Positions 42,554-56,624 are shown, numbered from the stretch's first letter. The stretch: DNA of 64,000 bases from an uncultured Actinomycetes bacterium (GCA_903893745.1 CAITNF010000013.1:86237-150236), one strand, 5' to 3'. Notes: generated by a model not told the origin, from the letters alone. Numbers and translations: made by a program.

Positions 42554-43160
42554 GCGACCACGTCAACCGTGCGAGTCGCTCTTCGATGATGGCGGCGACC
42601 TCATCTTCGCTGCTCGCACCGTCAACCACGAACCAACCTTGCGTATCGTTCGCCGCCATCTCGAGGTAACCCTGGCGCACCCGCTCGTGAAAGTTGAGAT
42701 CGGCTGACTCAAAGCGATCCTCGTGATTGCGAGCTCGACGTTCGTTCGCCGTGTCCAGCGCCAGGTCAATCAAGATGGTGAGGTCGGCCCGACAGTCACC
42801 AATCGCCAATTCGGTCGCGGCCATGAGGTCAGCCAGGTCGACCCCCCGACCGTAGCCCTGGTAGGCGAGGGTCGAGGCGAAAAAGCGATCGCTCACGACG
42901 CTGCGACCACTCGCGAGGGTGGGCTCAATCACCGAACGCACGTGGTGTGATCGATCGGCGAGCATCAACAGTGCCTCAGTCGCCGGGGTCATCGGCGTTG
43001 CCGCGTCGAGTAACCACCGTCGCAGTTCTACGCCGAGTGGAGTGTCGCCCGGTTCAAAAGTAAACAGCGCGTCGTAGCGCTCGGCCACGCGGCGAGCCTG
43101 CGTGCTCTTGCCGCTGGCGTCAATACCTTCAAAGACGAGGAAGAGTCCTCGCCCCATCAC
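42546..43160 (-). CDS. tmk: Thymidylate kinase
   Basis: LVFEGIDASGKSTQARRVAER; VVSDRFFASTLAYQGYGRG. Confidence 0.95.
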   Translation of the reverse strand: MMGRGLFLVFEGIDASGKSTQARRVAERYDALFTFEPGDTPLGVELRRWLLDAATPMTPATEALLMLADRSHHVRSVIEPTLASGRSVVSDRFFASTLAYQGYGRGVDLADLMAATELAIGDCRADLTILIDLALDTANERRARNHEDRFESADLNFHERVRQGYLEMAANDTQGWFVVDGASSEDEVAAIIEERLARLTWSRD

Positions 43161-45949
43161 TCGTCGTCCGCGTGCTGGGCAGTTTGCGCAAGTGAGGCGT
43201 TCGCCGCCGCACCCTTTTTGACGGCGGCGCGCTTGGCGACGCCAGTCGCCTTGGTGGGAGTTTTCTTCGCCGCCGATGCTTTCTTGGCGCCCACTTTTTT
43301 GGCAGTCTTTTTCGTCGCCTTCTTCACGGCCTTTCGTGGTCGCGCCGACGGATCGGCGTTTCGACGTTCGGCGAGCAGTTCACAGGCCCGGTCGAGCGAG
43401 ATAGTTTCGGGCGTGTCACCGATTCGCAACGTGGCATTGACCTCACCGTCGGTGACGTAGAGCCCGAATCGTCCCGACTTCACCACGACCGGTCGCTTCG
43501 TCACTGGATCGTCGCCTAACTCCTTGAGGGGACCAGCCGCTCGATTACGACCCCGCTGCTTGGGTTGGGCCAGCACCGCCAGGGCTCTAGCCAAATCAAT
43601 GGTGAAGATCTCTTCTTCGGTCTCGAGTGAACGCGTCTCTTTGCCCCACGTGAGGTACGGACCGTAGCGACCATTTTGGGCAAGGATCGCTTCGCCACCC
43701 TCGGGGTGATCGCCAACTATTCGTGGTAGTGACAGCAACTGCTTGGCGTCTTCGAGAGTGAGCGCTTCGGGCGTCATGGTGGAGAGTAGTGACGCGGTTT
43801 TGGGCTTCTCCTTCGGATCGGTCATCTCGCCAATCTGCACGTAGGGGCCGTAGCGTCCGGCCTTGAGGAAGATTGGTAGACCCGAATCGTCATCAGTTCC
43901 CAGCTCGCGGTCGTTACTGGGGGCGGCTAAGAGTTCGAGCGCGTGCTCGACACTTAACGAATCGGGCTCGGTCGCTTCGGGAATCGAGACGCGCTCTTCG
44001 CCGTGCACGAGGTAGGGGCCGTAGCGACCTGATCGCACCGAGACGGCCAGGCCGTCGGGGGCTACCCCCAGGGGAATTGAGTTGATGGCCGCGAAGTCGA
44101 ATTCGTGCGGCTCGTGGGTCATGTGTTCGAGACCCTTGCGCGCCAGTTCGGTCGTGGCGCTGGGGTCACCGAAGTAAAAGCGCTGGAGCCACGGCTCGAG
44201 GTCCTGGCGACCTTGGGCGATTTCGTCAAGCTGATCTTCCATCGCGGCGGTGAACTGGTAGTCGACCAGGTCGGCGAAGTAGTGCTCGAGCAGGTTCACG
44301 ACCGCGAACGCACGAAAGGCCGGCACCAACGACTTGCCCTTCTTCCAGACGTAACCTCGCCGATCAATCGTCTTCATCACCGACGCGTACGTTGATGGCC
44401 GGCCAATGCCGAGGTCTTCAAGTTTCTTAATCAACGTTGCTTCAGAGAAGCGGTCGGGCGGCTGGGTGTCGTGGCCCTTCGCCTCGGCACTCTGGACGGG
44501 GACGCGCTCGCCCTCGCCGAGCGGGGGCAAGATGCGCTCTTGGTCGGCGAGTTCGGCCTCGGGGTCGTCGGTTCCCTCCACGTACGCGCGACGAAAGCCC
44601 GGGAACTCAATACGCAGTCCCGTCGCACTGAGTCCGAGCACGACGTCGCCCGTGAAGTCGGTGACACCGGTCAAGGTCGTCGTGAGACGCACCTTGTCCT
44701 GCGTGAGCCGAGCGTCCACCATCTGTGAGGCAATGGTCCGCTTCCAGATCAGTTCAAAGACCGCTCGCTCATCGCCCCCAAGTAGCGATGCCGCTTCGTC
44801 GAGCGTGCGAAACGACTCGCCCGCGGGACGAATTGCTTCGTGCGCTTCTTGGGCGTTTTTCACCTTGCGGTCGTAGCGGCGAGGGGCGTCAGCGACGTAG
44901 TCATCGCCAAACATCGATGCCGCCATCGAACGCGCGGCCGCAATGGCTTCGTCGGACAGCGTGGTCGAGTCGGTACGCATGTAGGTAATCCAACCCTGCT
45001 CGTAGAGGCGCTGGGCGGCGCGCATCGTGCGTTCGGGGTCAAAGCGCAACTTACGACTCGCCTCAATCTGCAGTGACGACGTCATGAAGGGTGGCTGAGG
45101 TCGTTGGGTACGCGGCGTTGACGCCACCGATTCAATGAGTACGTCAGCGCCAACGAGTCCACTGGCAATCGACGTCGCCGCGGCGGTCGTGAGTACTTCA
45201 ACCGAGGACTTGGTGTCGAGTTGACCAGCCGCGTCAAAGTGCTTGCCCGTCGCGAGGGTCGATCCGTTCACGGTGTCGAGTGTCGCTTCGAAAGAAGCAC
45301 TCTTGGCCTGAAGCTGTGCCGTGACGTCGAACCACGTGGCCGAGCGAAAGGCCATCCGCTCGCGCTCGCGCTCACAGACCAGTCGGATGGCAACCGACTG
45401 CACGCGACCGGCCGAACGGGCCTTGTCGACCGCGCGCCACAGTACTGGCGACACTTCGTAGCCAACGAGTCGGTCGAGAAACCGCCGACCCTCTTGCGCG
45501 TCAACTAAGCGCAGGTCGAGTTCGCGGGTGTCGTTGACGGCTCGTTCAATGGCGGCGGGCGTGATCTCGTGAAAGACCATTCGCTTCACCGGAACCTTAG
45601 GACTCAAGACCTCCATAAGGTGCCAGGCAATCGCTTCGCCCTCGCGGTCTTCATCGGTCGCGATGTAGAGCTCTTCGACTTGCATCAGTGCGGCCTTCAG
45701 TTCGGTCACAATTTTTTTACGATCACTCGACACGACGTAGACCGGTTTGAAGTGGTCGTGCACGTTGATGCCCAGCCGCGCCCACTTCTCACCCTTCACC
45801 GAAAGGGGGATATCCGCCGCACTTTGCGGTAGGTCGCGAATGTGACCAATGGAAGGTTTGACGATGTAGTCCGAGCCGAGCATGCTCTGGATGCGGGTGG
45901 CCTTGGCGACGGACTCAACAATTACGAGGGCACGAGCCATCCTCACCAC
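43157..45949 (-). CDS. topA: DNA topoisomerase I with Lys-rich C-terminal tail
   Basis: ALVIVESVAKATRIQSMLG; ATDEDREGEAIAWHL; GWITYMRTDSTTLSDEAI; GRYGPYxxxG C-terminal repeats. Confidence 0.97.
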   Translation of the reverse strand: MVRMARALVIVESVAKATRIQSMLGSDYIVKPSIGHIRDLPQSAADIPLSVKGEKWARLGINVHDHFKPVYVVSSDRKKIVTELKAALMQVEELYIATDEDREGEAIAWHLMEVLSPKVPVKRMVFHEITPAAIERAVNDTRELDLRLVDAQEGRRFLDRLVGYEVSPVLWRAVDKARSAGRVQSVAIRLVCERERERMAFRSATWFDVTAQLQAKSASFEATLDTVNGSTLATGKHFDAAGQLDTKSSVEVLTTAAATSIASGLVGADVLIESVASTPRTQRPQPPFMTSSLQIEASRKLRFDPERTMRAAQRLYEQGWITYMRTDSTTLSDEAIAAARSMAASMFGDDYVADAPRRYDRKVKNAQEAHEAIRPAGESFRTLDEAASLLGGDERAVFELIWKRTIASQMVDARLTQDKVRLTTTLTGVTDFTGDVVLGLSATGLRIEFPGFRRAYVEGTDDPEAELADQERILPPLGEGERVPVQSAEAKGHDTQPPDRFSEATLIKKLEDLGIGRPSTYASVMKTIDRRGYVWKKGKSLVPAFRAFAVVNLLEHYFADLVDYQFTAAMEDQLDEIAQGRQDLEPWLQRFYFGDPSATTELARKGLEHMTHEPHEFDFAAINSIPLGVAPDGLAVSVRSGRYGPYLVHGEERVSIPEATEPDSLSVEHALELLAAPSNDRELGTDDDSGLPIFLKAGRYGPYVQIGEMTDPKEKPKTASLLSTMTPEALTLEDAKQLLSLPRIVGDHPEGGEAILAQNGRYGPYLTWGKETRSLETEEEIFTIDLARALAVLAQPKQRGRNRAAGPLKELGDDPVTKRPVVVKSGRFGLYVTDGEVNATLRIGDTPETISLDRACELLAERRNADPSARPRKAVKKATKKTAKKVGAKKASAAKKTPTKATGVAKRAAVKKGAAANASLAQTAQHADDE

Positions 45950-46102: not shown

Positions 46103-48478
46103 TCAGTCGTCGCTCTGCGGTGCGGCCACGATTTCGTACTGCGGATTCAAAATCACCGCTTCACGTCGCAAGGACGTCACGGTGCCGTGAATCAAGAGTC
46201 GAGTACCTCGCTCGATACCCGGCACGTGCGCTCGACCCTGAAAGACCAGCGCAACCGAACCCGAATTGTCGGCCACGACACAGCGCATCTCACTCGCTCC
46301 CGACTCGTGATTAATGGTGATTGAACGCACCCGTCCCGCGATGTCGACCACGTCACGTTCACGCAGCACGGCAATCGGGGTTGCCCCCGAAGAGCGCTCC
46401 GCCAACTTCAGGTCGGCTTCGAGGTGGGCGTCTTCACGCACTCCCCCGCGCGCGATGACGTCGAGTGGCGCAGCCGGGGCGTCGCCCGCAACTTCCGTGG
46501 TCGAACTCATGCGATACGGAATAATGGTCGCCGCGGTTCGTGGCACGTGCATCACGGCACTAGCGATTGCGTCGGCCGTGCGGTCATGGAGTAGTCGCTG
46601 GAGTCGCGAGGTGAAGCCCCGACGCGGCAAGATGACCATACAAAATACGTCGGGGTCACGAACCACGTCCGCGACGAGCTCAAGGGCTGCTCGATCGACT
46701 CGACGGTCGTCGCACTCAACTATTTCGAGATTCAAACCAAACGACGCAGAGTCGGGCGCCCCCCACTTCTCTTCGAGTTGTCGCGTTACCCGAGGGTCGA
46801 TGTCAAAGTGCACCGCACGAATCGAAAACGTATTCAAGGTATTGCAGTAGCGCAAGGCGCGCTCGGTCGCGAGGTCGTAGTTATCGACGAAGACGACCAA
46901 CCGATTGAGGCGAAAGGTGCTCGAACCCGAGCCGTCACGCGACGCCTCGAAGGCCGCGTCTTCACGCGAGTAGAGCTTGTTCATGTGCAACAGTCCGGTG
47001 ACCATGATGGGAAATGCCACCACCACAATCCAGGCACCTTCCGCAAACTTCACCACTGCAAAGATCAACGCAATAATCGCGGTCACGATACTGGAGAGCA
47101 CGTTGATAATAAATCCTCGACGCCAGTGCTCTTCTCGTTTGGTCCAGTGACGCTTGGCCATCCCGGCCCCCGCCATCGTGAAGGCCGTGAAGACGCCAAT
47201 CGCATACAGCGCGATTAGTGCGTTCACACTGGCCTGAAAGACCAGTACCAGCACGAGCGCCATCAAACCCAGCGCCAAAATACCGTTAGAGAAAGCCAGG
47301 CGGTGACCGCGCTTGGTCAACTGCAGTGGCAAGAACCGGTCGTTCGCGACGAAGTTAGTGAGGAAGGGGAAGCCGTTAAAACTGGTGTTCCCACCGGTGT
47401 ACAAAATGAGCATGGTGGCCAGTTGCACCAGGTAGTAGACGACGTGCAGCGCGCCGTGGCCAAAGACCGCAAGCACCTCTTGGCTCACGACGGTAGGCGA
47501 GCCAATTGCGTAGGGCAACGCGTGGGTCCAGCGAGCGAGCAGCGTCGTGCCCACCAAAAGAAACGCGAGCACCGAGGCCATCGTCACCATCACGACGCGG
47601 GCGTTGTGCGCTTCGGGCTTGCGAAAACTCGATACCCCGTCAGAGATCGCTTCAAGTCCGGTGAGCGACGAGCCACCGTTGGCGTAGGCGCGCAGCAACG
47701 TCAAAAACGCTGCGCCCATGAGAAAACCGTGACCACCCGTGCCGAGGTGGCCATCGACCAGTAAGTGCGTCGCGGGCTGGGCAATTGGGTGCAGTGAGCC
47801 CGAGAGAAACTTGGCAACGCCCATCACGATGGTGAGCGTCATCATCGTGATGAAGAAATAGGTCGGAAAGGCGAACCAACTCCCCGCTTCTCGAATACCT
47901 CGAAGGTTGCCAAATATCAACAGCAGCACTACGCCGGCCGTAATCGGCACTCGGTAGTTCACGAGTGACGGCACCGCACTCGTGAGCGCGGCCGTTCCGG
48001 CACTGCACTGCACGGCGACCGTGACGATGTAGTCGATTAACAACGCCACCGCAGTCACTGACGCGACCTTGGGACCAAAATTGTCGCGAACCACGATGTA
48101 GGAACCACCGGTGATGTTGTAGTAACCAATCACGTCGAGATAGGACAGCGTCACCAGGAGCAGAACTCCGAGAATGACAAACATGATTGGGACCAGAAGT
48201 GAGAAAGCGGCGAGCCCGATGTAGGGCGTCAGCTGGGTCAGAATCTGCTCCGCACCGTACGCCGATGAGGAGATGCAGTCGGGCGACAGGACCCCCAGCG
48301 CGACGGGTTTACTAATCCGTTCACCCGCCAGTTGCTCGGAGACAAATGGTCGTCCGAGAAACGTTCGTTTCAGGCGATACCCGAGAGTCTCGGGGTAAAC
48401 CGTCGAGACATTCGCGTGCGAGGTGAGTACGGGAACACTCTTGGAAATCTGGTTGTCGGCTTCGGACACGTGTTTCAC
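46103..48478 (-). CDS. APC-superfamily permease (KimA/YdaO-type potassium importer-like) with C-terminal OB-fold-like domain
   Basis: SSSAYGAEQILTQLTPYIGLAAF...YYNITGGSYIVVRDNFGPKVASVTAVALLIDYIVTVAVQCSAG; C-terminus ERDVVDIAGRVRSITINHESGASEMRCVVADNSGSVALVFQGRAHVPGIERGTRLLIHGTVTSLRREAVILNPQYEIV. Confidence 0.82.
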   Translation of the reverse strand: MKHVSEADNQISKSVPVLTSHANVSTVYPETLGYRLKRTFLGRPFVSEQLAGERISKPVALGVLSPDCISSSAYGAEQILTQLTPYIGLAAFSLLVPIMFVILGVLLLVTLSYLDVIGYYNITGGSYIVVRDNFGPKVASVTAVALLIDYIVTVAVQCSAGTAALTSAVPSLVNYRVPITAGVVLLLIFGNLRGIREAGSWFAFPTYFFITMMTLTIVMGVAKFLSGSLHPIAQPATHLLVDGHLGTGGHGFLMGAAFLTLLRAYANGGSSLTGLEAISDGVSSFRKPEAHNARVVMVTMASVLAFLLVGTTLLARWTHALPYAIGSPTVVSQEVLAVFGHGALHVVYYLVQLATMLILYTGGNTSFNGFPFLTNFVANDRFLPLQLTKRGHRLAFSNGILALGLMALVLVLVFQASVNALIALYAIGVFTAFTMAGAGMAKRHWTKREEHWRRGFIINVLSSIVTAIIALIFAVVKFAEGAWIVVVAFPIMVTGLLHMNKLYSREDAAFEASRDGSGSSTFRLNRLVVFVDNYDLATERALRYCNTLNTFSIRAVHFDIDPRVTRQLEEKWGAPDSASFGLNLEIVECDDRRVDRAALELVADVVRDPDVFCMVILPRRGFTSRLQRLLHDRTADAIASAVMHVPRTAATIIPYRMSSTTEVAGDAPAAPLDVIARGGVREDAHLEADLKLAERSSGATPIAVLRERDVVDIAGRVRSITINHESGASEMRCVVADNSGSVALVFQGRAHVPGIERGTRLLIHGTVTSLRREAVILNPQYEIVAAPQSDD

Positions 48479-48548
48479 ACTAAGGCACCAGCGTCACTAG
48501 TCACAACCGTATTTGCACCTTTGGGGCAAATTGTGGTGGGATGAAGAG

Positions 48549-49202
48549 GTGCATATCATCGTTGTCGGCTCGGGCCGAGTCGGTTCAGAGCTCGCTATGC
48601 AGATGTCCGACGAAGGGCACTCGGTGGTAGTCATTGACAAGAATCCCGACGCTCTGCGACGGTTGAACCGCTTCCACGGCAAGACCTTGGTGGGTTCGGG
48701 GTTCGACCGCGACATCTTGTTCCAGGCCGATGCCAACCAAGCCGATGCGCTCGCGGCGGTCACCAGTGGTGACAACACCAACATTCTCTGTGCGCGAATT
48801 GCGCGCGACAATTACCACATCAAAAATGTGGTTGCCCGAATCTACGACCCCCAGCGAGCCGATATCTACATGAAACTCGGTATTCCCACGGTGGCCACTT
48901 CGCTGTGGACGACCCAACAGGTGCGCCGATGGATGATGCCCTCTGACGACTCAATCGAATGGACCGACGGCGTTGGCATGCTCCACCTGGTCGAACGAGT
49001 ATTACCCGACTCGCTCGCGGGGCGACCGCTGAGTGAATTAAACGTCAGCGATCACGTGCGAGTCGTTGGCCTCATCCGAGGTGGCGTCGGGCGCGTGAAT
49101 ATTGAGGGGCTCTTTGCTCAAGAAGATGACGTGCTCGAGTTCCTCGTCACTCCCGACGGGTTACTCGAACTCACTACCCGGCTCGAAGGAGCGTCGTCAT
49201 GA
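48549..49202 (+). CDS. ceoB: TrkA-N/C potassium uptake regulatory protein (CeoB-like)
   Basis: VHIIVVGSGRVGSELAMQMSDEGHSVVVIDKNPDALRRL...; GTG start chosen within ORF 48513..49202. Confidence 0.9.
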   Translation: MHIIVVGSGRVGSELAMQMSDEGHSVVVIDKNPDALRRLNRFHGKTLVGSGFDRDILFQADANQADALAAVTSGDNTNILCARIARDNYHIKNVVARIYDPQRADIYMKLGIPTVATSLWTTQQVRRWMMPSDDSIEWTDGVGMLHLVERVLPDSLAGRPLSELNVSDHVRVVGLIRGGVGRVNIEGLFAQEDDVLEFLVTPDGLLELTTRLEGASS

Positions 49203-49867
49203 GGGTCGTGGTCGCCGGTGGTGGGTCTGTCGGCACCGCAATTTCGCTGGACCTGGTCGATCGCCACCACGACGTGACGCTGATTGAACAGGTTCCCGCA
49301 AACGCCGAGCGGCTAAAAGCTAAATTGCCGGGCGTCAAAGTATTTCCGGGTGACGCCTGCGAGTTTGCGTGCCTGGTCGCGGCCGACCTGCGCACTGCTG
49401 ACGTCGTGATTGCGGCTACTGGTGACGACGAGGACAACCTGGTGATCAGTTGGCTCTCCAAGCAAGAGTTCGGTGTGCCGCGCGTCATTTCGCGCATCAA
49501 CAATTCGCGCAACGAGTGGCTCTTTAACGAATCGTGGGGAGTCGACGTTGCGGTCTCCACTCCGGCGCTCATTACGTCGCTGGTTGACGAGGCCGTTGAA
49601 GTGGGCGCAATTATTAATCTGATGGACCTCGCGCACGGCAAGATGAAGCTCATTGAGGTCACCCTCGCTTCAGACGCCCCGGCCGTTGCCCAAAAACTCA
49701 CGCTCGACGAACTACGCCTCACCGACGCGGTACGCGTGGTCGCGGTGGTTCGCAGCGACCAGCCCATGACCCCGTCACCCACGATGCGGTTTCTCGAGCA
49801 CGATCACGTCATTTTGATGGCCCGCGCTGACGCGACTCAGGACTGCGCTACAGCCTTCATTGGCTGA
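49199..49867 (+). CDS. ceoC: TrkA-N/C potassium uptake regulatory protein (CeoC-like)
   Basis: MRVVVAGGGSVGTAISLDLVDRHHDVTLIEQ; 4-nt overlap with upstream gene. Confidence 0.9.
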   Translation: MRVVVAGGGSVGTAISLDLVDRHHDVTLIEQVPANAERLKAKLPGVKVFPGDACEFACLVAADLRTADVVIAATGDDEDNLVISWLSKQEFGVPRVISRINNSRNEWLFNESWGVDVAVSTPALITSLVDEAVEVGAIINLMDLAHGKMKLIEVTLASDAPAVAQKLTLDELRLTDAVRVVAVVRSDQPMTPSPTMRFLEHDHVILMARADATQDCATAFIG

Positions 49868-54115: not shown

Positions 54116-55234
54116 TTGTCGTATCAGGCTGAGTACATCTGGATCGACGGCAGCGAGCCGACCCGCAAGCTGCGCAGCAAGACACGAATCATTGCCAACG
54201 GCAAGAAGCCCGAAATCTGGGGCTTTGATGGCTCGAGTACCAACCAGGCCACTGGTCACTTCTCGGACTGCGTTTTGAACCCGGTCTACACCTGCAAGGA
54301 CCCCCTACGCGGTGCGGGCGACATTCTCGTTATGTGTGAGGTCCTAAACCCCGACATGACACCGCACGTCACCAACACCCGAGCTGGGGCGCTCGCGGCG
54401 CACAAGAAGTACGCCAGCTTTGAGCCGATGTTCGGTATCGAGCAGGAGTACACCTTCTTCCAAGACGGCCGACCCTACGGTTGGCCCGACGAGGGCTACC
54501 CCGCACCCCAAGGTCCCTACTACTGCGGCGTGGGTGGCTCCAAGATGCCCGGGCGCGACATCGTCGAACAGCACACCCTCGCGTGCATGCGCGCCGGTAT
54601 TGGTATTGAAGGCACAAACGCTGAAGTGATGATGGGCCAGTGGGAGTTCCAAGTCGGAGTCCTTGACACCGTCGCGGTGGGCGACCAGCTGTGGACCGCT
54701 CGTTGGTTGCTCGAGCGTATTGCCGAAGAGTTCGATGTTGAGGTGAGCTACGACGCCAAGCCCATTAAGGGTGACTGGAATGGTGCGGGCGCACACACCA
54801 ACTTCTCCACGAAGCAGATGCGCGCTGCGGGAGGATGGAGCGCCATCATCGCGGGCTGCGAAGCCCTCGGCACGCGCGTGAACGAGCACATCAAGAACTA
54901 CGGCGAGGGTATCGAGGACCGACTGACTGGCGCGCACGAAACGGCGCACTGGTCGAAGTACTCCTACGGCGTGTCGGACCGTGGCTCGTCGGTGCGCATC
55001 CCGGGCGGCGTCGCCCGAGAGAAGCGTGGTTACCTCGAAGATCGTCGGCCTAACGCCAACATCGACCCCTACACCGTGACCCGACTAATGGTTGAGACCA
55101 TCTGCGGCGCCGCCAAGCCCGCGACCGCGAAGAAGGCGGCCAAGAAGTCCCCCGCCAAGAAGGCCGCGTCGAAGAAGAAGGGCCCCGCCAAGAAAGCAGC
55201 GAAGAAGTCAGTGAAAAAGGCTGCTCGACGCTAG
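54116..55234 (+). CDS. glnII: Glutamine synthetase type II (eukaryotic-like) with Lys/Ala-rich C-terminal tail; TTG start
   Basis: AEYIWIDGSEPTRKLRSKTRII; WGFDGSSTNQATGHFSDC; FGIEQEYTFFQDGRPYGWP; tail KKAAKKSPAKKAASKKKGPAKKAAKKSVKKAARR. Confidence 0.94.
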   Translation: MSYQAEYIWIDGSEPTRKLRSKTRIIANGKKPEIWGFDGSSTNQATGHFSDCVLNPVYTCKDPLRGAGDILVMCEVLNPDMTPHVTNTRAGALAAHKKYASFEPMFGIEQEYTFFQDGRPYGWPDEGYPAPQGPYYCGVGGSKMPGRDIVEQHTLACMRAGIGIEGTNAEVMMGQWEFQVGVLDTVAVGDQLWTARWLLERIAEEFDVEVSYDAKPIKGDWNGAGAHTNFSTKQMRAAGGWSAIIAGCEALGTRVNEHIKNYGEGIEDRLTGAHETAHWSKYSYGVSDRGSSVRIPGGVAREKRGYLEDRRPNANIDPYTVTRLMVETICGAAKPATAKKAAKKSPAKKAASKKKGPAKKAAKKSVKKAARR

Positions 55235-55247
55235 CGAGTACCAAACC

Positions 55248-55286
55248 ACAAAGCCCGCCGACTTCGTGTGCGGCGGGCTTTGTTGT
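55248..55286 (+). terminator. Intrinsic terminator after type II glutamine synthetase gene
   Basis: CAAAGCCCGCCG-acttcgtgtg-CGGCGGGCTTTG-TTGTT. Confidence 0.88.
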
Positions 55287-55325
55287 TGCTGGTCCGAATT
55301 TGACCCCCCGCGAGAAGGTGCGAGA

Positions 55326-56624
55326 ATGTCAACTATGCAGAGCCAGGCCCAGTACGTCTTGCGAACCGTCGAGGAACGAGGGATTCGATTCGTCCAACTC
55401 TGGTTCACTGACGTGCTCGGGCGACACAAGGCCTTTCACGTCACGCCCGCCGAACTAGAGGACGCGCTCGACCAGGGCATGACCTTTGACGGCAGCGCCA
55501 TTGACGGATTCTCTCGCGTCCAAGAGTCCGACGTTCTAGCCCGACCGGACCTCACCACGTTTCAACTGCTTCCTTGGTACGAACAAGGCGCGGGCGTCGC
55601 GAGAGTCTTTTGCGACATTGTCAACATTGACGGCACTCCGTTTGAGGGCTGTCCTCGCCAGCAACTCCGTCGCGTACTCGGCGCAGCCCGTGAACAGGGC
55701 TACACGTTCTTCGTGGCCCCCGAGATTGAGTACTTCTACTTCAACGACCTCGATCCCTCGCACGCACCTCAGCCAACCGACCGGGGTAGTTACTTTGATC
55801 TTTTGCCCGACGACACCGCGAGCCAGCTACGCCGGCGCACGGTACTGACCCTCGAAGAGATGGGTATCGGCGTCGAACACGCCCAACACGAAGACGCCCC
55901 TGGTCAGCACGAGATCGATTTGCGCTACACCGATGCACTCACCATGGCCGACACGGTGATGTCGGTGCGTCACGTCGTCAAAGAACTCGCCCGCCAGTCA
56001 GGCGTCGCCGCGAGTTTCATGCCCAAGCCGCTCGCGGGCGTCCAGGGCTCGGGTATGCACACCCATCTTTCGCTCTGGCGTGACGAAACCAACGCCTTCA
56101 TTGGTGACGGCCCGCACGGACTCTCGCCCGTCGCGACGAAGTTCATTGCCGGCCTCGTCCACCACGCTCCCGAAATCACCGCTATCACCAATCAGTGGGT
56201 GAACTCCTACAAGCGTCTGGTCCCCGGTGGCGAAGCGCCCGTCGGAGCCAGTTGGGCGCGCCACGACGCGGCCGCGTTGGTGCGCGTCCCTTCGGTCAAG
56301 CCGGGCCGTATTGATTCAACTCGTTTGGAGTATCGCTCGCCCGACCCCGCGGCGAACCCCTACCTCGCCTTCGCGGTCATGCTGGCGGCGGGTCTGCGGG
56401 GGGTGAACGGTGACTACGAACTTCCCGTCGAAGGAGCCCGCACCGCTCAGTTACCCCAGTCGCTGGCCGAAGCGCTCGATCTCATGGAGAGCTCCACGCT
56501 GCTGCACGAAACGCTCGGCGCGCACCAAGTGGAGTGGTTCTTGCGCAATAAGCGAGCCGAGTGGGACTCCTACCGTGGTCAAGTGACGGCCTTTGAACTC
56601 GAGCGCTACCTCCCGCTGCTGTGA
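55326..56624 (+). CDS. glnA: Glutamine synthetase type I (GlnA2-like)
   Basis: VRFVQLWFTDVLGRHKAFHVTPAELEDALDQGMTFDGSAIDGFSRVQESD; GSGMHTHLSLW; no canonical NLYDLP adenylylation motif (reads GDYELPVE). Confidence 0.92.
   Translation: MSTMQSQAQYVLRTVEERGIRFVQLWFTDVLGRHKAFHVTPAELEDALDQGMTFDGSAIDGFSRVQESDVLARPDLTTFQLLPWYEQGAGVARVFCDIVNIDGTPFEGCPRQQLRRVLGAAREQGYTFFVAPEIEYFYFNDLDPSHAPQPTDRGSYFDLLPDDTASQLRRRTVLTLEEMGIGVEHAQHEDAPGQHEIDLRYTDALTMADTVMSVRHVVKELARQSGVAASFMPKPLAGVQGSGMHTHLSLWRDETNAFIGDGPHGLSPVATKFIAGLVHHAPEITAITNQWVNSYKRLVPGGEAPVGASWARHDAAALVRVPSVKPGRIDSTRLEYRSPDPAANPYLAFAVMLAAGLRGVNGDYELPVEGARTAQLPQSLAEALDLMESSTLLHETLGAHQVEWFLRNKRAEWDSYRGQVTAFELERYLPLL

Follow-up and report, generated by a model that had tools for sequence, protein, structure and literature searches.

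The window analysed here is a stretch of 64,000 nucleotides from an uncultured Actinomycetes bacterium (GCA_903893745.1, CAITNF010000013.1:86237-150236), with positions counted from its first letter. One gene encodes a KimA-type transporter that continues into a C-terminal OB-fold domain (KimA-OB), and two genes on the other strand encode CeoB- and CeoC-like proteins (Table 1). The original prediction had described the transporter as divergent from a CeoB/CeoC pair, and the arrangement agrees: the starts lie about 70 bp apart on opposite strands, and both CeoB and CeoC are single-RCK proteins.

Table 1. Features of the KimA-OB/CeoBC locus
Feature	Position	Strand	Remarks
KimA-OB fusion gene	46103..48478	-	791 aa; GTG start; single uninterrupted frame
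Parts of KimA-OB (residues)			N-terminus 1-33; LeuT-fold membrane domain 34-515; PPAT-like cytosolic domain ~526-656; linker ~657-696; OB ~697-787
Predicted KimA-type K+/H+ symporter core, residues 34-656	46511..48379	-	KimA similarity; site residues
Flexible linker, residues ~657-696	46391..46510	-	pLDDT <50 at 659-685; 22% identity among relatives
OB-fold domain, residues ~697-791	46106..46390	-	PF01336 match; AlphaFold; Foldseek; conservation
Divergent intergenic region, ~70 bp, common to KimA-OB and CeoB	48479..48548	.	no Rfam riboswitch
CeoB-like single-RCK protein (TrkA_N + TrkA_C)	48513..49202	+	probable true start GTG 48549
CeoC-like single-RCK protein (TrkA_N + TrkA_C)	49199..49867	+	4-bp overlap with CeoB

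Results

The KimA-OB frame contains no internal stops and no frameshift. The same fusion is present in all four members of the genus in our phylum sample (297 Actinomycetota genomes, evenly drawn) and in dozens of independent assemblies, and this recurrence rules out a frameshift, chimera or assembly artefact as its source.

Both RCK proteins match TrkA_N (PF02254; 94.5 bits for CeoB and 86.9 bits for CeoC) with the GxGxxG motif present, and both match TrkA_C, at E=1.7e-4 in CeoB, which is under its cut-off, and at 1.6e-7 in CeoC. Their Rossmann motifs (GSGRVG...D and GGGSVG...E) suggest that they sense nucleotides. They are two separate one-RCK chains scoring far under the TrkA equivalog cut-offs, not a TrkA-type double RCK in one chain.

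Identity of the transporter

The transporter half is close to KimA (YdaO) of B. subtilis. Residues 34-640 match KimA (6s3k/8b70/8b71) over nearly its whole length (phmmer E=3.6e-89), and the three KimA entries 8b70, 8b71 and 6s3k are the top PDB matches when the full-length model is searched with Foldseek; Pfam assigns the protein to the APC family (PF13520, 73.5 bits). In KimA, K+ is bound by D36, Y43, T121, T230 and Y377, proton coupling involves E233, and D117 is a proposed cytosolic K+ sensor (PMC6994465, PMC10284832). The K+ and H+ residues are all identical in the window protein (D67, Y74, T153, T273, Y425 and E276, in the same order) and do not vary among the 49 fused proteins aligned. 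D117 corresponds to D149, and the aspartate is kept in 48 of the 49. Because these residues are invariant, and because seven APC permease paralogs of the same genome lack the set, KimA-OB is most likely a K+/H+ symporter, as judged from sequence. The earlier assignment to the KimA/YdaO type thus stands, and neither result that would have spoken against the original prediction was obtained: the modelled C-terminal domain is an OB fold, and the permease has the full KimA set of K+/H+ residues. Relative to B. subtilis KimA, with which it shares the LeuT-fold membrane domain and the PPAT-like cytosolic domain, the window protein differs in carrying an extra C-terminal linker and OB domain and in having adjoining RCK genes.

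The C-terminal OB-fold domain

AlphaFold modelling (49 fused proteins) gave helices for the membrane domain and an alpha/beta fold for the cytosolic domain (526-656), followed by a linker predicted to be disordered (659-685) and by a beta barrel modelled with confidence, in line with the predicted soluble region followed by an OB-like domain. The OB domain modelled alone has six strands and a pLDDT of 87, and its Foldseek neighbours are the OB folds of PolC, archaeal RPA, SSB and RecG (1gm5, TM 0.70), with TM of about 0.65-0.71 for the best matches. The C-terminal ~90 residues match PF01336 with E=7.5e-6 and 26.2 bits (curated cut-off 27), three relatives score above that cut-off (27.2-28.6 bits), and RecG models also match. 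The domain therefore shares its fold with PF01336 and the RecG wedge (PF17191) but is only weakly related to them in sequence; it is not joined to a helicase, carries a family-specific GR(R/P/A) motif and sits in a membrane-transporter context. A second OB match in the same genome (C16) is a RecG helicase by inspection, and OB matches in large frames of two other genomes, both without KimA, are probably RecG as well.

Mean identity to the window protein is 45% for the OB domain and 22% for the linker, so the OB domains appear to be under selection. The conserved residues are R708, G715, R716, D737, G740, F746, G748-R749, G758, G765 and N778-P779. Net charge averages +3.3 in fused OB domains and is +1 in the window domain, with many relatives neutral or acidic, and aromatic residues average 3.6 per domain. 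As to function, the fold relatives favour a nucleic acid as ligand, whereas the gene neighbourhood favours a protein-binding or regulatory role; charge and aromatic content point clearly to neither.

Distribution and origin of the fusion

Across the phylum sample, OB was found in 93 genomes, KimA in 119 and both in 89, such that 89 of the 93 OB-positive genomes also have KimA. In most other actinobacteria the OB domain is a separate gene in the arrangement KimA<->CeoB-CeoC...OB, and at unfused loci picked by the OB match alone, KimA, CeoB, CeoC and OB occur together in 31 of 33. KimA and OB are fused in 77 of 80 named loci found with a full-length alignment as query, mostly from Acidimicrobiaceae/Acidimicrobiales MAGs of soil, bog and freshwater origin; within the order, an OB match inside a frame of at least 627 aa is present in 77 of 248 genomes, and all 20 order members taken one per family are KimA-OB. 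The original prediction that the OB domain is fused to the transporter here was therefore correct, but the fusion is not peculiar to this locus: it recurs across Acidimicrobiales.

A tree of 91 KimA sequences requires three changes in fusion state: the fusion was gained once and apparently lost twice, with one of these losses at a contig end. One apparent loss is Amycolatopsis acidicola, whose KimA falls within the fused clade with no OB domain detected. Two MAGs labelled Chloroflexi and Dormiibacterota also fall inside the fused clade, possibly through transfer or misbinning. In a genome of the same order that branches beside the fused clade (G103), the OB gene starts 1 nt past the KimA stop on the same strand (TGA G ATG); this unfused arrangement is the operon intermediate expected on the way to fusion. 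At three loci of one family the OB frame immediately precedes KimA on the same strand, in the order opposite to the fusion, and one genome carries two tandem KimA-OB fusion genes beside CeoB/CeoC (G313:C5, 5604-10706).

Fusion and CeoBC do not always travel together. Nine fused loci in Streptomyces, Kitasatospora, Embleya, Pseudonocardia and Streptosporangia relatives have no adjoining CeoBC, and in one genome (G097) the fused KimA-OB is an additional KimA besides the CeoBC-linked one. Overall, 20 of 83 fused rows lack CeoBC alongside, some of them at contig ends, and thus OB does not always need adjacent CeoBC. The fusion, widespread and of single origin, is one form of a KimA-CeoBC-OB module that is conserved in actinobacteria and tends to take the place of TrkH.

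Candidate partners of CeoB and CeoC

RCK proteins of the CeoB/CeoC kind usually gate a TrkH/KtrB channel, and they can also regulate cation/proton antiporters. TrkH (PF02386) had no match in this genome, in three other genus members or in a further member of the family (G167), and KdpA, Kup and Ion_trans_2 (the two-helix K+ channel) were not detected in this genome, a 96%-complete draft. CeoB and CeoC are its only TrkA_N matches over the cut-off. Because TrkH, Kup, KdpA and a K+ channel were not detected, CeoBC would be left with KimA-OB as the evident uptake partner, unless the pair acts on an antiporter, a class outside the families searched.

The wider distribution is consistent with this view. 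In the phylum sample TrkH occurs in 13 of 89 genomes with KimA and OB, compared with 140 of 174 with neither, and in the same order the counts are 2 of 13 and 8 of 9, both comparisons ignoring shared ancestry. Conversely, the presence of TrkH alongside KimA and OB in some genomes counts against a stand-in role. Streptomyces venezuelae has no TrkH/KtrB and two KimA-like proteins (PMC10117811). As far as can be judged from sequence, conserved co-location, a single fusion origin and the anticorrelation with TrkH together support the functional link to K+ transport that had been predicted for the OB domain.

Discussion

Our results point to a model, which we consider probable, in which this locus is the main K+-uptake system of the organism, with KimA-OB as importer, CeoBC as its control and OB as a regulatory or docking module. 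We infer transport, CeoBC control and the OB ligand. KimA-OB, as a transporter of the KimA/KUP type, would couple K+ import to protons, and CeoB and CeoC would assemble in the cytosol as an RCK complex, sense nucleotides through NAD(H)/ATP-type Rossmann motifs and control KimA-OB in place of a TrkH/KtrB channel. The role of the OB domain, also inferred, most likely lies in regulation or docking, as a cytosolic module fused to the CeoBC-controlled importer; flexibly tethered to the KimA cytosolic domain, it would most likely keep CeoBC or a ligand close to the transporter.

Several alternatives bear on the transporter and its ligand. The Pfam label AA_permease_2 would suit a permease that carries amino acids or another substrate, with the OB domain and CeoBC as unrelated neighbours, but we find this scarcely credible: the nearest solved structure is KimA by both sequence and fold, the RCK genes are conserved neighbours, and the invariant K+/H+ residues, which the APC paralogs lack, led us to reject an amino-acid permease. 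Regulation by c-di-AMP as in Bacillus, with OB as a further c-di-AMP site, is very improbable, although the cytosolic domain of KimA has been retained, 43 of 49 fused proteins carry R or K where KimA has Arg337, and two genomes with the fusion (G081 and G221) encode a diadenylate cyclase. At the KimA pocket positions the window protein has R337->L, Q581->R and S582->T. The cyclase domain (PF02457) is absent from this genome, from 12 other genus members, from three more and from G167, so that none was found in any searched genome of the genus; in the phylum sample it occurs in 36 of 89 genomes with KimA and OB but in 171 of 208 others. No c-di-AMP riboswitch (Rfam) was found in the 70-bp divergent region, and in S. 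venezuelae the RCK protein Vnz_27460, adjacent by locus tag to the KimA-like Vnz_27465, does not bind c-di-AMP (PMC10117811). With the cyclase domain missing and Arg337 replaced by leucine, c-di-AMP is unlikely as a ligand in this lineage, and its proposal as a candidate ligand is weakened here; the same cannot be said of the whole fused family, since G081 and G221 encode the cyclase.

Two further alternatives concern the OB domain itself. It could be a nucleic-acid-binding module of the RecG-wedge or RPA-like kind that ties the transporter to nucleic acid, such as its own mRNA or the nucleoid, with CeoBC acting separately. The nearest relatives in sequence and fold (the RecG wedge, PolC, RPA and SSB) bind nucleic acid, fused OB domains are slightly basic on average, and R708, R716 and R749 are conserved. 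We nonetheless regard this as unlikely, since the window domain is near neutral, many relatives are neutral or acidic, aromatics for base stacking are few, the genes conserved beside it encode RCK proteins and transporters, and proteins and small ligands are bound by OB folds as well. It is quite unlikely that OB is instead a structural or assembly domain, serving dimer stabilisation or membrane-protein folding with no regulatory role. The long disordered linker that joins it, and conserved residues that are partly glycines and core positions, would fit such a domain; the separate OB gene of most actinobacteria, however, stays beside CeoBC, often closer to CeoC than to KimA, a placement that a pure KimA-folding aid would have no need of.

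The regulatory or docking model can be set against better-characterized systems. TrkAH and KtrAB likewise use RCK-domain regulators for K+ uptake, but their membrane subunit, TrkH or KtrB, was not detected here, and the candidate partner is a proton symporter rather than a channel. In KhtTU and CpeAB an RCK-type subunit controls a secondary K+ transporter (PMC10117811); those transporters are K+/H+ antiporters, whereas the partner predicted here is a KUP-type importer.

The closest parallel is in mycobacteria. The M. tuberculosis neighbourhood includes Rv2694c, which we take to be an OB-fold protein, and it agrees with the sampled unfused loci, in which two single-RCK genes are divergent from a KimA-type gene with an OB gene nearby; there the OB protein has its own gene, whereas here it is fused to the transporter. 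At the one locus examined for it, the OB gene is followed by a DUF3159 gene, in keeping with the mycobacterial gene order. In M. tuberculosis, Rv2690c adjoins ceoB, and transposon mutants of the two genes show the same phenotype by Tn-seq (PMC12216072). Trk of M. tuberculosis is described as two TrkA-type proteins, CeoB and CeoC, and attenuation of the mutant has been seen both in mice and in macrophages (PMC6375644). Term searches of three papers on M. tuberculosis K+ (PMC6375644, PMC12136442, PMC13163235), with a set of terms that varied between papers, found neither TrkH, KimA nor Rv2690c named as the membrane partner of Trk, and Rv2694c does not appear in the title or abstract of any paper found mentioning it. 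Our literature searches returned nothing relevant on KimA with an OB fold or on APC permease/TrkA/OB-fold operons.

Taken with the conserved neighbourhood and the lack of TrkH, the fusion suggests that the missing membrane subunit of M. tuberculosis Trk is the KimA-type neighbour and that an OB protein of the Rv2694c type is a third part. We see about an even chance that in actinobacteria CeoB and CeoC act through an OB-fold subunit to gate KimA, a proton-coupled importer of the KUP family, rather than a TrkH/KtrB channel. If so, CeoBC-OB-KimA would constitute a class of K+-uptake complex that we did not find described in the literature, with the KimA-OB fusion as its direct genomic signature. 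This would provide a testable three-component model of K+ uptake for a large part of the Actinomycetota, including lineages without c-di-AMP.

Finally, the window holds two different tandem glutamine synthetase genes on the plus strand (54116-55234 and 55266-56624; 372 and 452 aa). The former has a lysine/alanine-rich, histone-H1-like C-terminal tail, and a similar tail is found in the topoisomerase I encoded at 43157-45949.
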